In this document: positions 2,611 to 53,393 of the stretch, piece after piece
How positions within the stretch are numbered: the first letter of the stretch is position 1
How the letters are laid out: each line of letters begins with the position of its first letter
NCBI RefSeq assembly: GCF_030814015.1
Contig: NZ_JAUSUL010000004.1
Coordinates: forward strand, 62,001-126,000
DNA length: 64,000 nt
Origin: Amorphus orientalis
GTDB lineage: Bacteria; Pseudomonadota; Alphaproteobacteria; Rhizobiales; Amorphaceae
Direction of reading: 5' to 3'
Notes under the pieces: model-generated
Seen by the model: the letters and a program-made list of their open reading frames with translations, nothing else
Told to the model about the DNA's origin: nothing
The model's database searches: none
Program-made: the position numbers and the translations under genes

Positions 2611-2710
2611 GCAAATCCCAGGAAAAGTGGGAACCGGTTTTCCGTCCGGGATTTGCGTGGAAAAAAGCAAATCCCAAGAAAAGTGGGCACCGGTTTTCTG
2701 TCCGGTCCCC
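2611..2710 (-). repeat. family A hairpin repeat, tandem pair
   Basis: Two family A units start at 2611 and 2667, 56 bases apart. The first is complete, with a GCAAATCCC/GGGATTTGC outer stem, an inner GGAAAA/TTTTCC stem and a conserved ACCGG loop. The second has lost its right outer arm near 2705, where a family C hairpin begins. Both lie in the orientation that reads GGAAAAGTGGG on the plus strand. Confidence 0.85.
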
Positions 2711-16864: not shown

Positions 16865-17074
16865 GCATTCCCCCGGGCGGAAACCCGGTTCCGACTTTCC
16901 CTGGGATTGTTTGTTCCTTCGCAATCCCAGACGGAAAACCGGTGCCCACTTTTCCTGGGATTGCTCTTCCCTCCCGCAATCCCGGACGGAAAACCGGTGC
17001 CCACTTTTCCTGGGATTGCTCTTCCCTCCCGCAATCCCGGACGGAAAACCGGTGCCCACTTTTCCTGGGATTGC
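16865..17074 (+). repeat. family A hairpin array, four tandem units of 55-56 bp
   Basis: Units start at about 16865 (worn), 16921, 16976 and 17031. The last three are near-identical: GCAATCCC, GGAAAACCGG, TTTTCCTGGGATTGC, then a CTCTTCCCTCCC spacer. Each folds as GCAATCCC/GGGATTGC plus GGAAAA/TTTTCC. The array fills the gap between two convergent genes, ending two bases from the stop codon of the gene at 17077. There are no distinct spacers, so it is not a CRISPR array. Confidence 0.92.
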
Positions 17075-20172: not shown

Positions 20173-20552
20173 GACCGCCGGCTCCTTCATGCGATGAGGC
20201 TTACTGGCCTATCATGACAAAACCGAATCCCACGTTAAGTTTAGCGGCGTCACGAAATCTTCGCATGATGCAAAGCGCCAGGCCGCAGATTGGCGTGGAC
20301 AGGCCGCCCGGCGCGGCGCAAACCTGCGCCCCGTCTCGCCTCGGCGCGGTGATTCCACGGGATCGGAAAAGGCGCTTGAGCACCTGGCGTTCAGGCTGAA
20401 CCCGTCAGAGCGAAAAGGAAGTGCTCAAGCTATTGAATCTGTAGCCATTTCTTGTCGATCAGGTGTGTTCCACCTGACCGGAAAAGGCTCTAAAGTCTGA
20501 TCCCGACCCGGGATCTCCATGACATCACACGGATCCGCGACAAAGGAGCCCC
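20173..20552. other. intergenic region between aidB-like gene and plsY
   Basis: These 380 bases separate two divergent genes. The right half is a family B element on the minus strand (20374-20491). The left half, 20173-20373, has no open frame or hairpin that I can support and presumably holds the promoter of the AidB-like gene. AAAGGAGCCCC just before 20553 is the plsY ribosome binding site. Confidence 0.6.
20374..20491 (-). repeat. family B two-hairpin element, copy 2
   Basis: Read on the minus strand this begins AGAGCCTTTTCCG, forms a first hairpin TCAGGTG/CACCTGA, passes through ATGGCTAC, and forms a second hairpin closed by TTGAGCAC/GTGCTCAA. The conserved frame matches copies 3 and 4, while both stems differ in sequence but still pair, so structure is kept better than sequence. 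Confidence 0.75.
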
Positions 20553-26082: not shown

Positions 26083-29016
26083 ATGGACGACGCGTTCGAA
26101 ACCTTTCTCACCTTGTGTGCGCATCCTGAAATCGGGAATGCGGCGGGCGACGCGCGTCCGGTCATCGTAGTATCGACGGCCCGACAGGAAGTGGTGTGGG
26201 CCAACGCTGCCGGCGGCGCCGTGTGCGGTCTGGAGAGTGCGCACGAGCTGGCCGGACCGCCTTCGCGCCGCACGGCGAGGCTCGCCCGCGACCTGAGCCG
26301 GCAGGTCCGCTTCATCGAGGCCGCGTCCGCCCGGCCCGCGCTCGTGCGGCTGCGCATGGGGCTGGAGACCGTCGTCCTGTCGTGCAGCATCGAGCCGATC
26401 GCCGACGGAAACCTCCGGCCGCTCGCCCGCTGTCTGATTCTCGCTCCGCCGTTCCCATCCGCCTCGCAGCCGAACCCCTGGTCCGCCTTCGCGATGTTCG
26501 CCGGAGGCGCGAGCGCAAGCATCGTCAACGCATCGGGCGCCGCGGTCGCGCGAGCCGTGCGGACACCGGCACCCGACGAGGAGATGCGACCGGTCCCACT
26601 CGGGGCCACCGGCCTGATGCTGCGCCTTCCCGCCGAGGAGACGGAGGCCGGCAGCCCCACGGCCTGGAGCCTCCAGGGGGATCTCGAACCGCTCGCCGCA
26701 TCTGATCTCGGGGCCAAGGCGGTGCGCGCGCCGGCCCGGGAGACGGACGACCCGCAGCCCGCGCCGTCCGAACCGCCCGCGACGCCGATGCGGCCGATCC
26801 GCTTCACCTGGCAAAGCGACGAAACCGACCGGCTGACCTACCTGTCTCCGGAATTTTCCGCGGCGCTCGGACCGACCGACCGGGTTGTGGGTCGCGGCTG
26901 GCGCGATCTGACCCGATCCCTCGGTCTCGATCCCGACGGGTCGTTCCAGGCAGCGCTGGCGGCCCGTACGGCCTGGAGCGGAACGACGCTCATGTGGCCC
27001 CAGCCATCGCTCGGGGCTCGGGTTCCGGTCGACATCGCCGGTCTCGCGATCCAGGATCCGAACCGTTCGTTCAAGGGCTTCCGCGGCTTCGGCCTGGTCC
27101 GCCCGGGCGACCTGATCGAAGACCCGGCCCTCGGCCCTGCGGCGCCTCCCGAAGCGCCCCATCCGGCCGACGCGGTCTTTTCCGCTGCCGAAGAGCCGGC
27201 CCTCGAGGCCGTGATCGCGTCCGAGGACGACCAGCCGGGGGAGCCGCCCCATCCCAGCAACGTGGTCCGCCTGCACGGCCACGCGGAGCCGGCCCCCGGC
27301 GAACTGCACCATCTCTCGCGCCCAGAGCAGGAAGCCTTCCGCATGATTGCCGCCGCGCTCGGCGCGCGCTTCGAAGGCGACGAGGCCTCTCCTCTGGACG
27401 TGGACACCGCCGATCTGTCTGCACCACTGGCCGATACGCCCACCATCGTCGAACCGCCGCGATATATGGATGCCGACGAGCCGATGCCGTCGGCCTTCGC
27501 CACCGTCAGCCGCGCGCCGGACATGCGGGTGCTCGACCGCCTGCCGCTCGCCCTGATCGTCTCCCAGCGCGAGCGGATCGTGCATGTGAACCCGGCCGCG
27601 CTGAAGCTTCTGGGCTATGCCGACCGCAGAGCGCTGGAGCGCTCCGGCGGCCTGTCGGGCGTCTTCGCCGAAGTGCCGGCGCCGCCCGAGGCCCAGGACA
27701 ACGCGATCCTTCTGCGCAAGGCGGGCGGCGCTCTCATCCCGGCGGAAGTCCGCCTTCACACCGTTCCATGGGGAGAGGAGCGCGCTCTGCTCGTGATCCT
27801 GCGGGCCCTTCCCGCCGACGCCCGAGGCGAGGAGGCGCGCATGAGCGTGGACGACGACGACGATCGCAACGCAGCACAGTCCGGCATTGCCGCGGATACC
27901 GATGGCGACGCGACCGCCGAAGCTCAGATTTCGGATCTCCTGAATGCCGTCCCCGACGCCGTGTTCGTGCTGGAGCCCGACGGCACCATCGCGCTCGCCA
28001 ACGCCGGCGCTGCCTCCATCTTCCGCCGACCCGCCGAGGCTTTCGCCGGCATGCGGCTCGACGACCTGCTCGACGAGGACGGCGGCGCGGTCGTTCACGA
28101 CCTGATCGAGGAGATCGCCTCCGGCGAGGAGCCCGCCCGTCCCCGGGTGGCCGACGACGTCATGGGCCTCTGCCGGGATCGCGGAAACGTGCCGCTGGCG
28201 CTCTCCGTCGGGCTCGTCGGCACCGGCCCGCGGCTGTGCGCCGTGCTGCGCGACGTGGCGCGCTGGAAGACGGCGGAAGCCCGCTATTCGGAAGCCACCC
28301 GCGCGGCGGAAACGGCGAACGCCCAGAAGTCGGAGATGCTGGCCCGGATCAGCCACGAGATCCGCACCCCGCTGAACGCCATTCTCGGGTTCGCGGACGT
28401 GATGCTGGCGGAGAAACTCGGCCCGCTCGGGAACCAGCGCTACCGCGATTATCTCCGCGACATCTCCATATCCGGCCACCACATCCTCAGCCTGGTGAAC
28501 GATCTGCTGGACCTGTCGAAGATCGAGGCCGGCAAGCTGGACCTGTCGTTCGAGCCGGTCTCCGTCAACGAGATCGCCCGCGACTGCAGCAATCTGATGG
28601 AGCCCCAGGCCGAGGCCGACAAGGTGGAGATCCGCACGCGCCTGCAGGCCGATCTTCCGCGCATCCTGGCGGACACGCGCTCGCTGAGGCAGATCACGCT
28701 CAACCTTCTGTCGAACGCCATCAAGTTCAACCGGACCGGCGGCGTGGTGTCCCTGTCGACCTTCCAGAGCGACACCGGCGCAGTGGTGCTGCGGGTCAGC
28801 GACAACGGTGTCGGCATGTCCGAAAGCGACCTGACGGCGGCGCTGGAGCCGTTCCGCCGGGTGGGCGGCTCCGACAAGGCCGGCACCGGGCTCGGCCTGC
28901 CGCTGACCAAGGCGCTGGCCGAAGCCAACCGGGCCGATTTCAAGATCCGCTCCGAGCCGAACCGCGGCACCGTCGTGGACATCACCTTCCCCGCCCCGCG
29001 CGTGCTGGCGGCCTGA
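26083..29016 (+). CDS. PAS-domain sensor histidine kinase, PdhS/CbrA-like
   Basis: This 977-residue protein has no membrane segment. The N-terminus (ETFLTLCAHPEIGNAAGDAR, VIVVS, VWANAAG) and FTWQSDETDRLTYLSPEF resemble the PdhS/CbrA kinases of rhizobia and Brucella, which set the phosphorylation of DivK and PleD and so control CtrA. PAS-like regions lie near 490-580 and 625-725. The dimerisation helix has SHEIRTPLNAILGFADVM with phospho-acceptor His758, followed by N, G1 and G2 boxes (NLLSNAIKFN, VSDNGVGMS, GTGLGLPL). Acidic, proline-rich linkers join the domains. The upstream CtrA-like box would fit feedback. The choice between PdhS and CbrA is open. Confidence 0.85.
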   Translation: MDDAFETFLTLCAHPEIGNAAGDARPVIVVSTARQEVVWANAAGGAVCGLESAHELAGPPSRRTARLARDLSRQVRFIEAASARPALVRLRMGLETVVLSCSIEPIADGNLRPLARCLILAPPFPSASQPNPWSAFAMFAGGASASIVNASGAAVARAVRTPAPDEEMRPVPLGATGLMLRLPAEETEAGSPTAWSLQGDLEPLAASDLGAKAVRAPARETDDPQPAPSEPPATPMRPIRFTWQSDETDRLTYLSPEFSAALGPTDRVVGRGWRDLTRSLGLDPDGSFQAALAARTAWSGTTLMWPQPSLGARVPVDIAGLAIQDPNRSFKGFRGFGLVRPGDLIEDPALGPAAPPEAPHPADAVFSAAEEPALEAVIASEDDQPGEPPHPSNVVRLHGHAEPAPGELHHLSRPEQEAFRMIAAALGARFEGDEASPLDVDTADLSAPLADTPTIVEPPRYMDADEPMPSAFATVSRAPDMRVLDRLPLALIVSQRERIVHVNPAALKLLGYADRRALERSGGLSGVFAEVPAPPEAQDNAILLRKAGGALIPAEVRLHTVPWGEERALLVILRALPADARGEEARMSVDDDDDRNAAQSGIAADTDGDATAEAQISDLLNAVPDAVFVLEPDGTIALANAGAASIFRRPAEAFAGMRLDDLLDEDGGAVVHDLIEEIASGEEPARPRVADDVMGLCRDRGNVPLALSVGLVGTGPRLCAVLRDVARWKTAEARYSEATRAAETANAQKSEMLARISHEIRTPLNAILGFADVMLAEKLGPLGNQRYRDYLRDISISGHHILSLVNDLLDLSKIEAGKLDLSFEPVSVNEIARDCSNLMEPQAEADKVEIRTRLQADLPRILADTRSLRQITLNLLSNAIKFNRTGGVVSLSTFQSDTGAVVLRVSDNGVGMSESDLTAALEPFRRVGGSDKAGTGLGLPLTKALAEANRADFKIRSEPNRGTVVDITFPAPRVLAA

Positions 29017-29018
29017 AA

Positions 29019-29060
29019 CAATTTCCGGGAAAGTGGGAACCGGCTTTCCGTCAGAAATTG
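29019..29060 (-). repeat. family A hairpin behind the histidine kinase gene
   Basis: CAATTTC/GAAATTG outer arms enclose GGGAAAG, ACCGG and CTTTCC. It begins two bases after the kinase TGA in the same orientation as at the other stop codons. The outer stem differs from other copies on both arms, keeping the pairing. Confidence 0.75.
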
Positions 29061-29103: not shown

Positions 29104-29697
29104 TCAGATGAAAACTGCCGCCATCGACGCGACCAGCAGGCAGGCGAACACGATGTTGACGACCCGCCCCCAGCGCGGCGACGACAGAACGCGGGTGAAG
29201 GCGGAACCGAGCAGCAGCCAGGCCGGGTTCACCACGAACACCAGGGCGACGACCACCGCGACGCGCAGCACGACGAAGGCGCCGGATCCGTCGCCCAGCG
29301 TGGCGGTGGACCCCAGGATCGCGCTGAAGGCGGCATAGGCCTTCGGGTTCGCGATCGCCAGAAGATACCCCGGCAGGAAGGACGGCGCCTTGGTGCCGGC
29401 ATCGCGGGCCACGGTGACCGGCGCGGTCGCGATCTTCCAGGCGAGATAGAGAATGTAGATGGCGGCGGCGATCGTCAGCACCGGCAACAGGCCCGGCACG
29501 GCGAAGACGATGCCGGTCACCCCGGAGGCGACCACGAGCACGACGGTGGAGGTGCCAAGACAGATGCCGGCCACGTAGGCAAGGCCGGCGCGCACCCCGA
29601 ACGCCGAGCCGACGGCCGCCGACGACAGGGTCGACGGGCCCGGGCTTCCCATCAACGGCACGGCGACCGACAGCACCACCAGAACCACTTCGAGCAT
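29104..29697 (-). CDS. LysE/RhtB-family exporter
   Basis: A 197-residue membrane protein with six predicted helices and the LysE-superfamily pattern: VPLMGSPGPSTLSSAAVGSAFG (the GPGP-like motif after helix 1), YLAWKI, and LAIANPKAYAAFSAI. The family exports amino acids or related small molecules. The start follows AGGAGGT. It diverges from an AraC-type regulator 86 bases away, which probably controls it. The substrate cannot be told. Confidence 0.88.
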   Translation of the reverse strand: MLEVVLVVLSVAVPLMGSPGPSTLSSAAVGSAFGVRAGLAYVAGICLGTSTVVLVVASGVTGIVFAVPGLLPVLTIAAAIYILYLAWKIATAPVTVARDAGTKAPSFLPGYLLAIANPKAYAAFSAILGSTATLGDGSGAFVVLRVAVVVALVFVVNPAWLLLGSAFTRVLSSPRWGRVVNIVFACLLVASMAAVFI

Positions 29698-29783
29698 TGC
29701 AGACCTCCTGTTTCGAAGGCCAGACTAGAAGCGGCTGCCAGCATCGTATTGAACGATCCTGGCGCAGATCAGAGGCCGCAGGA

Positions 29784-30584
29784 ATGAAGGATCAGGTCCG
29801 CTACGGCGGTGGCGCGGCGGGCATCGAGCGCGCCGAGATCGTGCTGGTGCGCGAGGCCTACTCGCCGCATCGTCACGACACCTACGCGCTCGGGATGACG
29901 CTCGGCGGCGTCCAGGCCTTCGACTATCGCGGCGCCGCGCGGGCCTCGGTCGAAGGCAACGTGTTCGTGCTCCACCCCGACGAGGTGCACGACGGCCATC
30001 CGGGAACCGAAGCCGGCCTCGCCTACCGCGCCCTCTACGTGGCGCCGCACCTGATCGCCGACGCCCTCGGCGGCGGTGCCCTTCCCTTTCTCGCCGAGCC
30101 GGTCAGCGCGGATCCGCGGCTCGTTCGAGCGATGCGGACGGCGATGGCCGGCTTCGACGACGCGATCGGCGAGATCCAGGCGACGGAGATCGTCACCACC
30201 CTCGCCGACGCCCTCGCCGCGATCGCCCGTCCGGGCGCGCCTTCCGCCCCGGTTCGGACCAACCGCCCGGCGATGGAGCGGGTTGCCGCCCTGATCGACG
30301 GCGAACCGGCGGAGAATGTCGGCATCGCGGAGATGGAGGGGGTGAGCGGCCACGACCGCTGGACGCTGTTCCGGCAGTTCCCGGCCGTCTACGGCGTCAG
30401 CCCCTATCGCTATGCGGTGATGCGCCGCCTCGACCGGGCCCGTGGCCTGATCCGTGCCGGATCGAGCCTCGCGGACGCGGCCGCCGCGGCCGGGTTCTCC
30501 GACCAGAGCCACCTGACGCGGCAGTTCCGCGCCACCTACGGCTTCTCGCCCGGCCGCTGGCGGCGGATGGTGACGGGACAGTAG
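29784..30584 (+). CDS. AraC-family transcriptional regulator
   Basis: This 266-residue protein has an N-terminal cupin-like ligand domain (SPHRHDTYALGMTLGGVQAF, VLHPDEVHDGHP) and a C-terminal AraC DNA-binding domain with SGHDRWTLFRQFPAVYGVSPYRY and AAAAGFSDQSHLTRQFRATY. The ATG at 29784 follows GCAGGA. Placed back-to-back with lysE, it most likely senses the exporter's substrate and activates it from the shared promoter region. Confidence 0.9.
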   Translation: MKDQVRYGGGAAGIERAEIVLVREAYSPHRHDTYALGMTLGGVQAFDYRGAARASVEGNVFVLHPDEVHDGHPGTEAGLAYRALYVAPHLIADALGGGALPFLAEPVSADPRLVRAMRTAMAGFDDAIGEIQATEIVTTLADALAAIARPGAPSAPVRTNRPAMERVAALIDGEPAENVGIAEMEGVSGHDRWTLFRQFPAVYGVSPYRYAVMRRLDRARGLIRAGSSLADAAAAAGFSDQSHLTRQFRATYGFSPGRWRRMVTGQ

Positions 30585-30627: not shown

Positions 30628-30842
30628 GCAAATCCCGGACGGAAAACCGGTTCCCACTTTTCCGGAGCCTTTTCCGCTCGGACGAAAACGTCCGAGCGAC
30701 GACAAATGGCTCCAGAGTCACTATGTTGAGCAAGTCCTTATCGTTCAGACCAGTTCGGTCTGAACGGGACATGCTCGGGATTTGCTCTCTTCCCCTGCAA
30801 ATCCCGGACGGAAAACCGGTTCCCACTTTTCCTGGGATTTGC
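30628..30842 (+). repeat. family A tandem pair behind gpmA, first unit interrupted
   Basis: Unit 1 runs from 30628 to 30663 and resumes at 30777-30785 (GGGATTTGC) after a 113-base family B insertion. Unit 2 is intact at 30797-30842. With the insertion removed the units are 56 bases apart, the normal family period. Unit 2 ends one base from the gpmA stop codon. Confidence 0.9.
30664..30776 (+). repeat. family B two-hairpin element, copy 3, inside a family A unit
   Basis: This 113-base copy has GAGCCTTTTCCG, a first hairpin CGCTCGGACG-AAAA-CGTCCGAGCG, CGACAAATGGCTCC, then TTGAGCAAGTCC and a second hairpin CGTTCAGACC/GGTCTGAACG ending GGGACATGCTC. Its borders are fixed by the interrupted family A unit, so its length is known to within a base. 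The ends GAGC and GCTC are inverted. Confidence 0.88.
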
Positions 30843-30843
30843 T

Positions 30844-31464
30844 TTAGCCCGCCATGTCCTTTTTCTCGGCGACCGAGCCGTCTTTGTTGAGGCGGTAGAT
30901 GATCGGGACGCCGGTGGCGAGTTCGCGCTTGATGATCTCCTCGCCGGACAGACCCTCGATCTCCATGATCAGGGCGCGCAGCGAATTGCCGTGGGCGGCC
31001 ACAAGCACCTTCTCGCCGGCGAGCACCTTCGGCTTGATCTCCGTCTCGTAGTAGGGAAGCACCCGCGCCGCCGTATCCTTCAGGCTCTCGCCGCCGGGCG
31101 GGGGAACGTCGAAGGAGCGGCGCCAGATGTGGACCTGATCCTCGCCGAACTTTTCGCGGGCATCGTCCTTGTTGAGGCCGGTCAGGTCGCCGTAGTCGCG
31201 CTCGTTCAGGGCCTGGTCCTTGATGACCGGCAGGTTGTCCGCGCCGAGCTCGCCGAGGATGATCTTCAGCGTGTCCTGGGCGCGCTTCAGATCGGAGGTG
31301 AAGGCGACGTCGAATTTGTAGCCGTCGGCCTTGAGGAGTTCGCCCGCCTTCTTCGCTTCCGCCCGGCCCGTGTCCGTCAGACCCACGTCGTGCCAGCCGG
31401 TGAAGAGGTTCTTCAGGTTCCATTCGCTCTGGCCGTGACGGACGAGCACGAGAAGACGGTCCAT
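30844..31464 (-). CDS. gpmA: 2,3-bisphosphoglycerate-dependent phosphoglycerate mutase
   Basis: GpmA interconverts 3- and 2-phosphoglycerate in glycolysis and gluconeogenesis. The 206-residue protein has [10 protein letters not shown] with the phosphorylated His10, [29 protein letters not shown] with Glu88, [16 protein letters not shown], and [11 protein letters not shown] with His158. It is slightly short, as in other Alphaproteobacteria. AGGAGC precedes the start. dapB lies 43 bases upstream on the same strand. A family A pair follows the stop. Confidence 0.95.
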
Positions 31465-53280: not shown

Positions 53281-53393
53281 GAGCCTTTTCCGCTCGGATG
53301 GAAACAGTCGAGCGATAAGAAACGGCTCCAGTTCCATTAGGTTGAGCAAGTCCCTTTCGTTCAAGCTGAATTCAGCCTGGACGGGACAAGCTC
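53281..53393 (+). repeat. family B two-hairpin element, copy 4
   Basis: This copy lies in the 388-base gap between the bactofilin and stress-protein genes (53158-53545), where I see no other feature. It starts GAGCCTTTTCCGCTCGGATG, has the first hairpin CTCGGATG/AGTCGAG with one weak pair, CGGCTCC, then TTGAGCAAGTCC, GTTCAAGCTGAA/TTCAGCCTGGAC and GGGACAAGCTCC. The ends GAGC and GCTC are intact. Confidence 0.85.

Follow-up and report, generated by a model that had tools for sequence, protein, structure and literature searches.

The RIMEs (Rhizobium-specific intergenic mosaic elements) of S. meliloti are about 108 bp long and contain two palindromes. Elements of the IS200/IS605 type are not known to duplicate their target when they move. 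In Brucella, Bru-RS1 and Bru-RS2 are palindromic repeats of 103-105 bp (PMC2267715). Repeats of the RIME and Bru-RS types have been on record since the 1990s, going by the titles of papers from 1994 and 1995. Within the literature at our disposal, which largely lacked subscription papers, nothing was found on how they move or that joins them to REP or REPIN sequences. A REP is a hairpin that follows a tetranucleotide, and BIMEs and REPINs are inverted pairs that occur mostly between genes (PMC8266576, PMC3116915, PMC3733652). The enzyme that moves them is the RAYT (TnpA-REP); its loss is possible and has been noted for other species (PMC3733652), and in one case a RAYT kept a reduced cutting activity on a CTAG variant (PMC8266576). 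The RUP element of S. pneumoniae, 107 bp long, gene-less and structured, has ends like those of IS630-Spn1 (PMC3049150).

The element described here is of a kind already known, i.e. RIME/Bru-RS-like. The window, by which we mean the whole stretch of 64,000 nucleotides of Amorphus orientalis DNA that was analysed, carries two families of short repeats, A and B, and at one place a family B element lies within a family A unit. The features of this locus, in window coordinates, are as follows.

29697-30584, + strand: gene for an AraC-type regulator, flanking the repeat stretch
30628..30663, + strand: left part of the interrupted family A unit (36/36 identity to the intact unit, 30797-30832)
30664..30776, + strand: inserted family B element of 113 nt, GGAGCC...CATGCTC (sequence match; the 118-position model matches at 30662-30779)
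30664..30713, + strand: hairpin 1 of this B element (fold and covariation)
30714..30727, + strand: spacer between the two hairpins (fold)
30728..30776, + strand: hairpin 2, whose family consensus is related to the reverse complement of hairpin 1 (fold and alignment)
30777..30785, + strand: right part of the interrupted family A unit, 9 nt (sequence match)
30797..30842, + strand: intact neighbouring family A unit, a paralogous empty site (sequence match)
30844-31464, - strand: gene for a histidine-phosphatase-superfamily protein, which we take to be a phosphoglycerate mutase, flanking the repeat stretch

An earlier note on this DNA had proposed that a two-hairpin insert of 113 bases splits a family A unit, and the A flanks of 36 and 9 nt, together with the fold of the insert, bear this out. 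Both as DNA and as RNA the insert folds much more stably than shuffled sequences (z of -8.7 and -7.4, respectively), and GGGATTTGC follows directly after it. The further proposal, that removing the insert restores both the unit and its 56-base spacing to the neighbour, holds for the spacing: from A core to A core the distance across the insert is 169 nt, i.e. 56 + 113, and A-A spacings below 60 are 54-58 throughout the genome. It does not hold fully for the unit, as the flanks joined without the insert make 45 nt, which differ from the intact unit of 46 nt by the absence of one T and in nothing else. A T is thus missing at the junctions, where an extra G is also present, and the missing T points either to an insertion that was not entirely clean or to a later loss of the base. 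The edges of the 118-position model at this copy read CCGG/AGCC...GCT/CGGG. Two convergent genes enclose the element on their 3' sides, and there one B copy would have entered a family A hairpin unit. Among the matches listed (79 B places and 90 A cores), no other B comes as close as 400 bp to an A core. A 20-mer of the insert matches itself and one other place at up to three mismatches (0.02 expected). A reading of the 169-nt spacing as tandem A units was rejected; among other A-A gaps of 167-171 nt, the two read forward (L204 and L206, by our own numbering of loci) contain a different repeat and not B.

In the congener G001, the genes flanking this locus are present with about 576 nt of other sequence between them, and the joined flanks of the focal copy matched paralogous A arrays. 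There is no orthologous empty site here, so the empty version is represented by paralogous A units only. An A unit that was assembled around B, having arisen or been converted later, would agree with this and with the one T that sets the interrupted unit apart from the intact one beside it and from other A units that were read, but we consider such a history scarcely credible: apart from that T the two A halves match the intact unit exactly, the array spacing returns to 56, and B is inserted elsewhere too.

A search of the element against Rfam gave nothing at gathering level. Sub-threshold matches to BASRCI27 (Brucella sRNA CI27) lie on the minus strand at 30668-30786 (29.0 bits, E 1e-4) and 30787-30849 (15.8 bits), the gathering score being 59.8; they are not taken as a classification of B, and the sRNA model may include a hairpin of B's class.

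Further copies of family B in the window are the following.

53281..53393, + strand: copy with 78% identity over 113 columns, 120.9 bits with the model
20378..20490, - strand: copy with 74% identity, 99.4 bits
3597..3702, + strand: more degraded copy, 72% identity over 107 columns, 96.8 bits
25359..25402, - strand: possible hairpin 1 fragment, 73% identity over 45 columns (44 nt), weak (E 0.006)

Across the genome (4.71 Mb, 13 contigs), BLAST with the 113-nt element gives 40 matches. The covariance model R1 (118 positions, built from 28 copies) gives 89, the same element being counted on both strands where both match, and at least 79 distinct places are occupied among the matches listed, weak ones included. 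The copies are old: median pairwise identity is 67% and the best pair reaches 92% (38 copies), while the nearest relative of the focal copy is 80% identical to it. No overlap with a predicted gene was seen for any of 40 copies checked (genes were predicted by a crude method based on codon usage, and one copy lay in a stretch too short for it). The strand of the element does not follow the local GC skew (24 of 53 positive), so no lagging-strand bias is seen in this weak test. Pairs of B copies were considered as possible ends of composite transposons (C1 438833-439819 and 205823-207656) and rejected, with no evident transposase among the ORFs read, which covered the second interval in part. Two copies stand about 90 nt apart (L028 1460-1784), and at the left flank of L009 and the right flank of L016 B copies adjoin apparent pieces of other B hairpins, which suggests that B entered or neighboured other B copies.

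The element is about 112-118 nt long and consists of two related hairpins of about 50 nt, each of which folds on its own. Its ends are sharp, CTRG/AGC...GCT/CYAG in the 38 best of 57 copies. In these copies, the first nine positions at the left end carry 0.70-1.77 bits against 0.04-0.11 in the ten positions outside, and the right end carries 1.08-2.02 bits up to GCTC, 0.32-0.80 in the last three positions (YAG) and 0.02-0.23 outside. The ends GAGC...GCTC, as the note had fixed them from the focal copy, are family-wide, and the CTR and YAG beyond them are less conserved. Exact CTAG is found in 27 of 86 left 4-mers and 25 of 86 right 4-mers, and GTAG at three of 86 left ends. Both RNAalifold and a count based on the named structure support the two hairpins, and their base pairing has been maintained. 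Over 28 copies, 87% of cells are paired (24-46% for slid versions of the structure) and 66 cells are double-changed, against 31 in shuffles, none of 500 of which is as high; by a weaker measure, 15 pairs have a double change against 11.5 in shuffles, a count that 28 of 500 shuffles reach. Aligned to hairpin 1, consensus hairpin 2 scores 22 as its reverse complement, compared with 8 in the direct orientation and a maximum of 2 in 1000 shuffles. The element is therefore an inverted doublet, which explains why the model matches both strands at one place.

It is quite improbable that the moving unit is a single hairpin and that doublets arise by neighbouring insertion. Single-hairpin matches do occur (L022, L025, L026 and L034, plus two of 52-56 nt in G001), and in many of 20 Ancylobacter copies each hairpin has its own CTRG-like and CYAG-like bounds; against this, doublets dominate the good matches, the first 39 of those listed comprising 38 of 114-122 nt and one of 88.

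The joined flanks of 37 of 39 B copies from this genome, whole or part, were compared with the congener. Apart from the focal copy, ten of 36 have a flank match there; all ten were examined, and with them the congener locus of the gene adjacent to the focal copy. Both sides align at eight of these eleven congener loci (L001, L008, L011, L020, L030, L150, L151 and L188) and one side at three (L003, L005 and L016). No full-length B is present at any of the eight, and a model search found ten of the eleven loci without any B match and none with a full element. The congener locus of L188 (L256 1340-1396) has a weak match of 57 nt ending in GCTCTAG (14.7 bits, E 0.004); it is consequently not a clean empty site, and may carry a single-hairpin remnant of B. 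In the congener as a whole, BLAST finds no B, and the model with stricter filters finds two pieces of 52-56 nt.

These comparisons bear on the reading of B as a structured RNA or DNA-binding site, i.e. a terminator, an sRNA or a protein-binding palindrome, kept by selection, with its spread secondary or due to recombination. Compensatory pairing, the position of copies between genes and the sub-threshold match of the Brucella sRNA model would suit it. We nevertheless find it improbable as an account of the family, since eight syntenic congener loci lack full-length B, the flanks of copies are unrelated beyond the sharp ends, and the at least 79 places in this genome (among the matches listed) compare with two pieces in the congener. 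A function of B after insertion is possible.

A similar comparison, of the joined flanks of 20 Ancylobacter amanitiformis copies, was made with A. sonchi, A. aquaticus and A. defluvii. The cleanest site is L312, where A. amanitiformis has an insert of 108 nt and A. sonchi one of 91 nt, and A. defluvii has none, its empty allele reading GTAG-CTGATC-GGCGGG. Both inserts begin at GTAG; on the right the target sequence resumes, and neither GTAG nor TA is repeated there. An alignment shows the inserts to be homologous, with identity at 68 of 110 columns and a score of 26 where shuffles reach 9 at most. Each folds as two hairpins, although the A. sonchi insert is not matched by R1. The two probably represent one old insertion, and the empty allele of A. 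defluvii could be a precise loss. L308 resembles L312, with CTAA in the filled allele, GTAA or ATAA in the empty ones, and no copy of TA or of the tetranucleotide on the right. That B moved as a discrete unit, as proposed earlier, is well supported by its nesting within A, by the sharp drop of conservation at its ends, by the eight congener loci and by these vacant sites. The empty sites that the note had suggested looking for thus exist in Ancylobacter and in the congener, though not in orthologous form at the focal locus.

Target duplications, also suggested there, were not seen at the two clearest sites, L312 and L308. A permutation scan of 86 copies, which is blind to an invariant TA or CTAG, showed nothing beyond shuffles at 2-4 nt and a borderline 3-copy match at 5 nt (z 2.66 against 2.52 in the best of 20 shuffles). 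L317 can be read as a duplication of GCCGG, the site being ambiguous. On the left, the 4-mer in the orientation of the element equals the empty allele at three or four positions in five of seven readable sites (L312, L011, L003, L030 and L308), and at two of four positions in L008 and L020. The chance of five in seven is 3e-5 if the offset is fixed and 0.0045 with three offsets, before allowing for site choice, as the seven were picked by eye out of 18 aligned sites (10 from this genome, 8 from Ancylobacter). The other eleven stand outside this count: L304, L317 and L151 are ambiguous, the left junction of L005, L016, L150 and L188 is unalignable, and L299, L302, L313 and L316 are one-sided or unclear; A. 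aquaticus continues with CTAGAGC at L302, so that this site may be filled.

Our preferred reading, to which we give a probability of about 0.5, is that B is a non-autonomous inverted hairpin doublet of the RIME/Bru-RS kind that is inserted 3' of a CTRG-like tetranucleotide without duplication, as it would be by an HUH (Y1-type) enzyme. The target would lie directly 3' of the tetranucleotide (CTAG, CTGG, GTAG and the like), no target-site duplication would be made, and the enzyme would recognise the folded single strand of B, as in the IS200/IS605 and REP/RAYT systems. For the HUH mechanism as such we see about even odds. Several observations count against the preferred reading, namely the lack of a Y1 enzyme in the genome and the relatives searched, the lack of an insertion sequence with matching ends at 18 transposase loci of relatives, the missing T and extra G at the focal copy, and the strand bias that the weak test did not show.

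The strongest competing reading has B moved as a classical MITE, by an IS630- or IS5-type DDE transposase that targets CTAG or YTAR and duplicates TA. The CTRG and CYAG at the two ends, with the exact CTAG counts given above, invite this reading, as do IS711, which duplicates TA at YTAR and is reported to favour Bru-RS (PMC2266754, PMC3163539), and RUP, which B resembles in its size of about 107 bp, its structure and its lack of genes, and whose ends are like an IS630 element of the same species. We regard it as rather unlikely, however, on account of the right sides of L312 and L308, which have no copy of TA or of the tetranucleotide, and of the transposase searches. DUF4096 and DDE_3 both gave no hit in the genome of A. 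orientalis, DDE_3 gave none in G019, a genome with 21 matches to the B model, and none of 18 loci from relatives, out of 25 DUF4096/DDE_3 hits, showed an insertion sequence with the element's ends in an inverted-repeat check.

The Y1 transposase family (PF01797) has no member in the genome or in the six relatives, from its genus and family, that were searched. A transposase or TnpA-REP-like gene with matching ends, which the earlier note had named as a check, was therefore not found in these genomes and loci. Its suggestion that the enzyme is supplied from elsewhere is consistent with a genome that lacks all three transposase families searched. An HUH enzyme may have been lost, and without a Y1 enzyme in their own genome the B copies here are probably immobile remnants. 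The sharp ends, the doublet plan and a vacant Ancylobacter site yield a concrete rule that can be tested, insertion 3' of CTRG without duplication, and direct the enzyme search towards HUH proteins. What is new is this proposed rule and the inverted-doublet plan, and with moderate confidence we see in them a tie between repeats of the RIME and Bru-RS types and the spread of REPs and REPINs. B is tagged by a tetranucleotide, doubled in inverted orientation and placed between genes, as those are. It differs in its tag, which is CTRG-like rather than GTAG (or CGTC), in a genome without RAYT (no PF01797), and in hairpins of about 50 nt that each fold alone.

Matches to R1 at E 0.001 occur in 14 of 41 genomes, A. 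orientalis included, and at E 0.01 in 10 of 18 genomes that were accessed by way of named loci. The latter, with matches on both strands included, are as follows.

Ancylobacter amanitiformis: 35 R1 matches
Tepidamorphus MAG: 15 R1 matches
Azorhizobium oxalatiphilum: 13 R1 matches
Pseudoxanthobacter soli MAG: 6 R1 matches
Six further genomes: 1-3 R1 matches each

The best Tepidamorphus copy (132.7 bits) is near the best copy of A. orientalis (135.2 bits). Between genera the stems diverge and the CTAG-like ends are mostly kept; blastn with the consensus found no match on plasmids, where the covariance model was required. With it, one clear match was obtained in the 400 kb searched of the 1683-kb S. 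meliloti pSymB. This element, at 334494-334599, has 106 nt, the form CTAGAGC...GCTCTAG and two palindromes (E 6.5e-6); the record has no annotation there, and we take it to be a RIME. Its ends and two-palindrome plan are like those of B, whereas its stem sequences differ. In Brucella pseudogrignonensis the model gives two weak matches, 107-108 nt long (E 4e-4 and 4e-3). The ends of one are CTAGAGC...GCTCTAG and those of the other TTAGAGC...GCTCTAA, and from their length and form the two would be Bru-RS repeats. To Bru-RS1 and Bru-RS2 B is alike in length class and in being palindromic, with weak sequence similarity. It is because of the similar elements in Ancylobacter, Tepidamorphus, Brucella (Ochrobactrum) and Sinorhizobium pSymB that we file B with the RIME/Bru-RS kind, which it fits in its length of about 100-120 bp, many copies, intergenic position and two large palindromes (fold and covariation); this placement is a judgement, the named families being compared indirectly, via matches without annotation.

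Family A is found in the window in two further arrays, and also at 29016-29059.

2611..2705, - strand: family A array of two units
16872..17072, + strand: family A array of four units, with a spacing of about 55 nt

Genome-wide there are 90 A cores with up to three mismatches, 45 forward and 45 reverse (control 0), and units are often arrayed at 54-58 nt. Over 26 distinct units the two sides of the outer stem change together (AATCC/GGATT, AAAGC/GCTTT, ACGC/GCGT, AATTC/GAATT), so family A looks like a maintained hairpin. The second half of the pSymB element (L351 34494-34599) is identical to family A at 27 of 32 nt, with a score of 22 against a shuffle maximum of 12; its second hairpin resembles family A. 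Marginal scores were given by a second pSymB element (L355 16747-16850, CTAG-bounded, with two hairpins; 17 against 14) and by a Brucella pseudogrignonensis hairpin (17 against 15). An Ancylobacter hairpin (10 against 12) and the two focal B hairpins (9 against 12 and 7 against 13) do not rise above shuffles. The likeness of the pSymB second hairpins to A means that hairpins of the A type may serve as modules in elements like these. As a tentative extension, which we think possible rather than probable, B, RIME and Bru-RS could form one alphaproteobacterial superfamily of CTAG-tagged doublets, sister to the GTAG-tagged REP/REPIN sequences and spread by a single-strand HUH enzyme that carrier genomes have lost or in which it has gone unrecognised, with A as a second, shuffled module that makes mosaics of the RIME type.

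Between or beside A units there is a further repeat, CAGCGCGCGACCGCGCGCCGGCCGGTCAGG ... GTGAGCGAAGCGAACTCGCGTGAGCGCT, with variants (L190, L192, L198, L204, L206 and L246).
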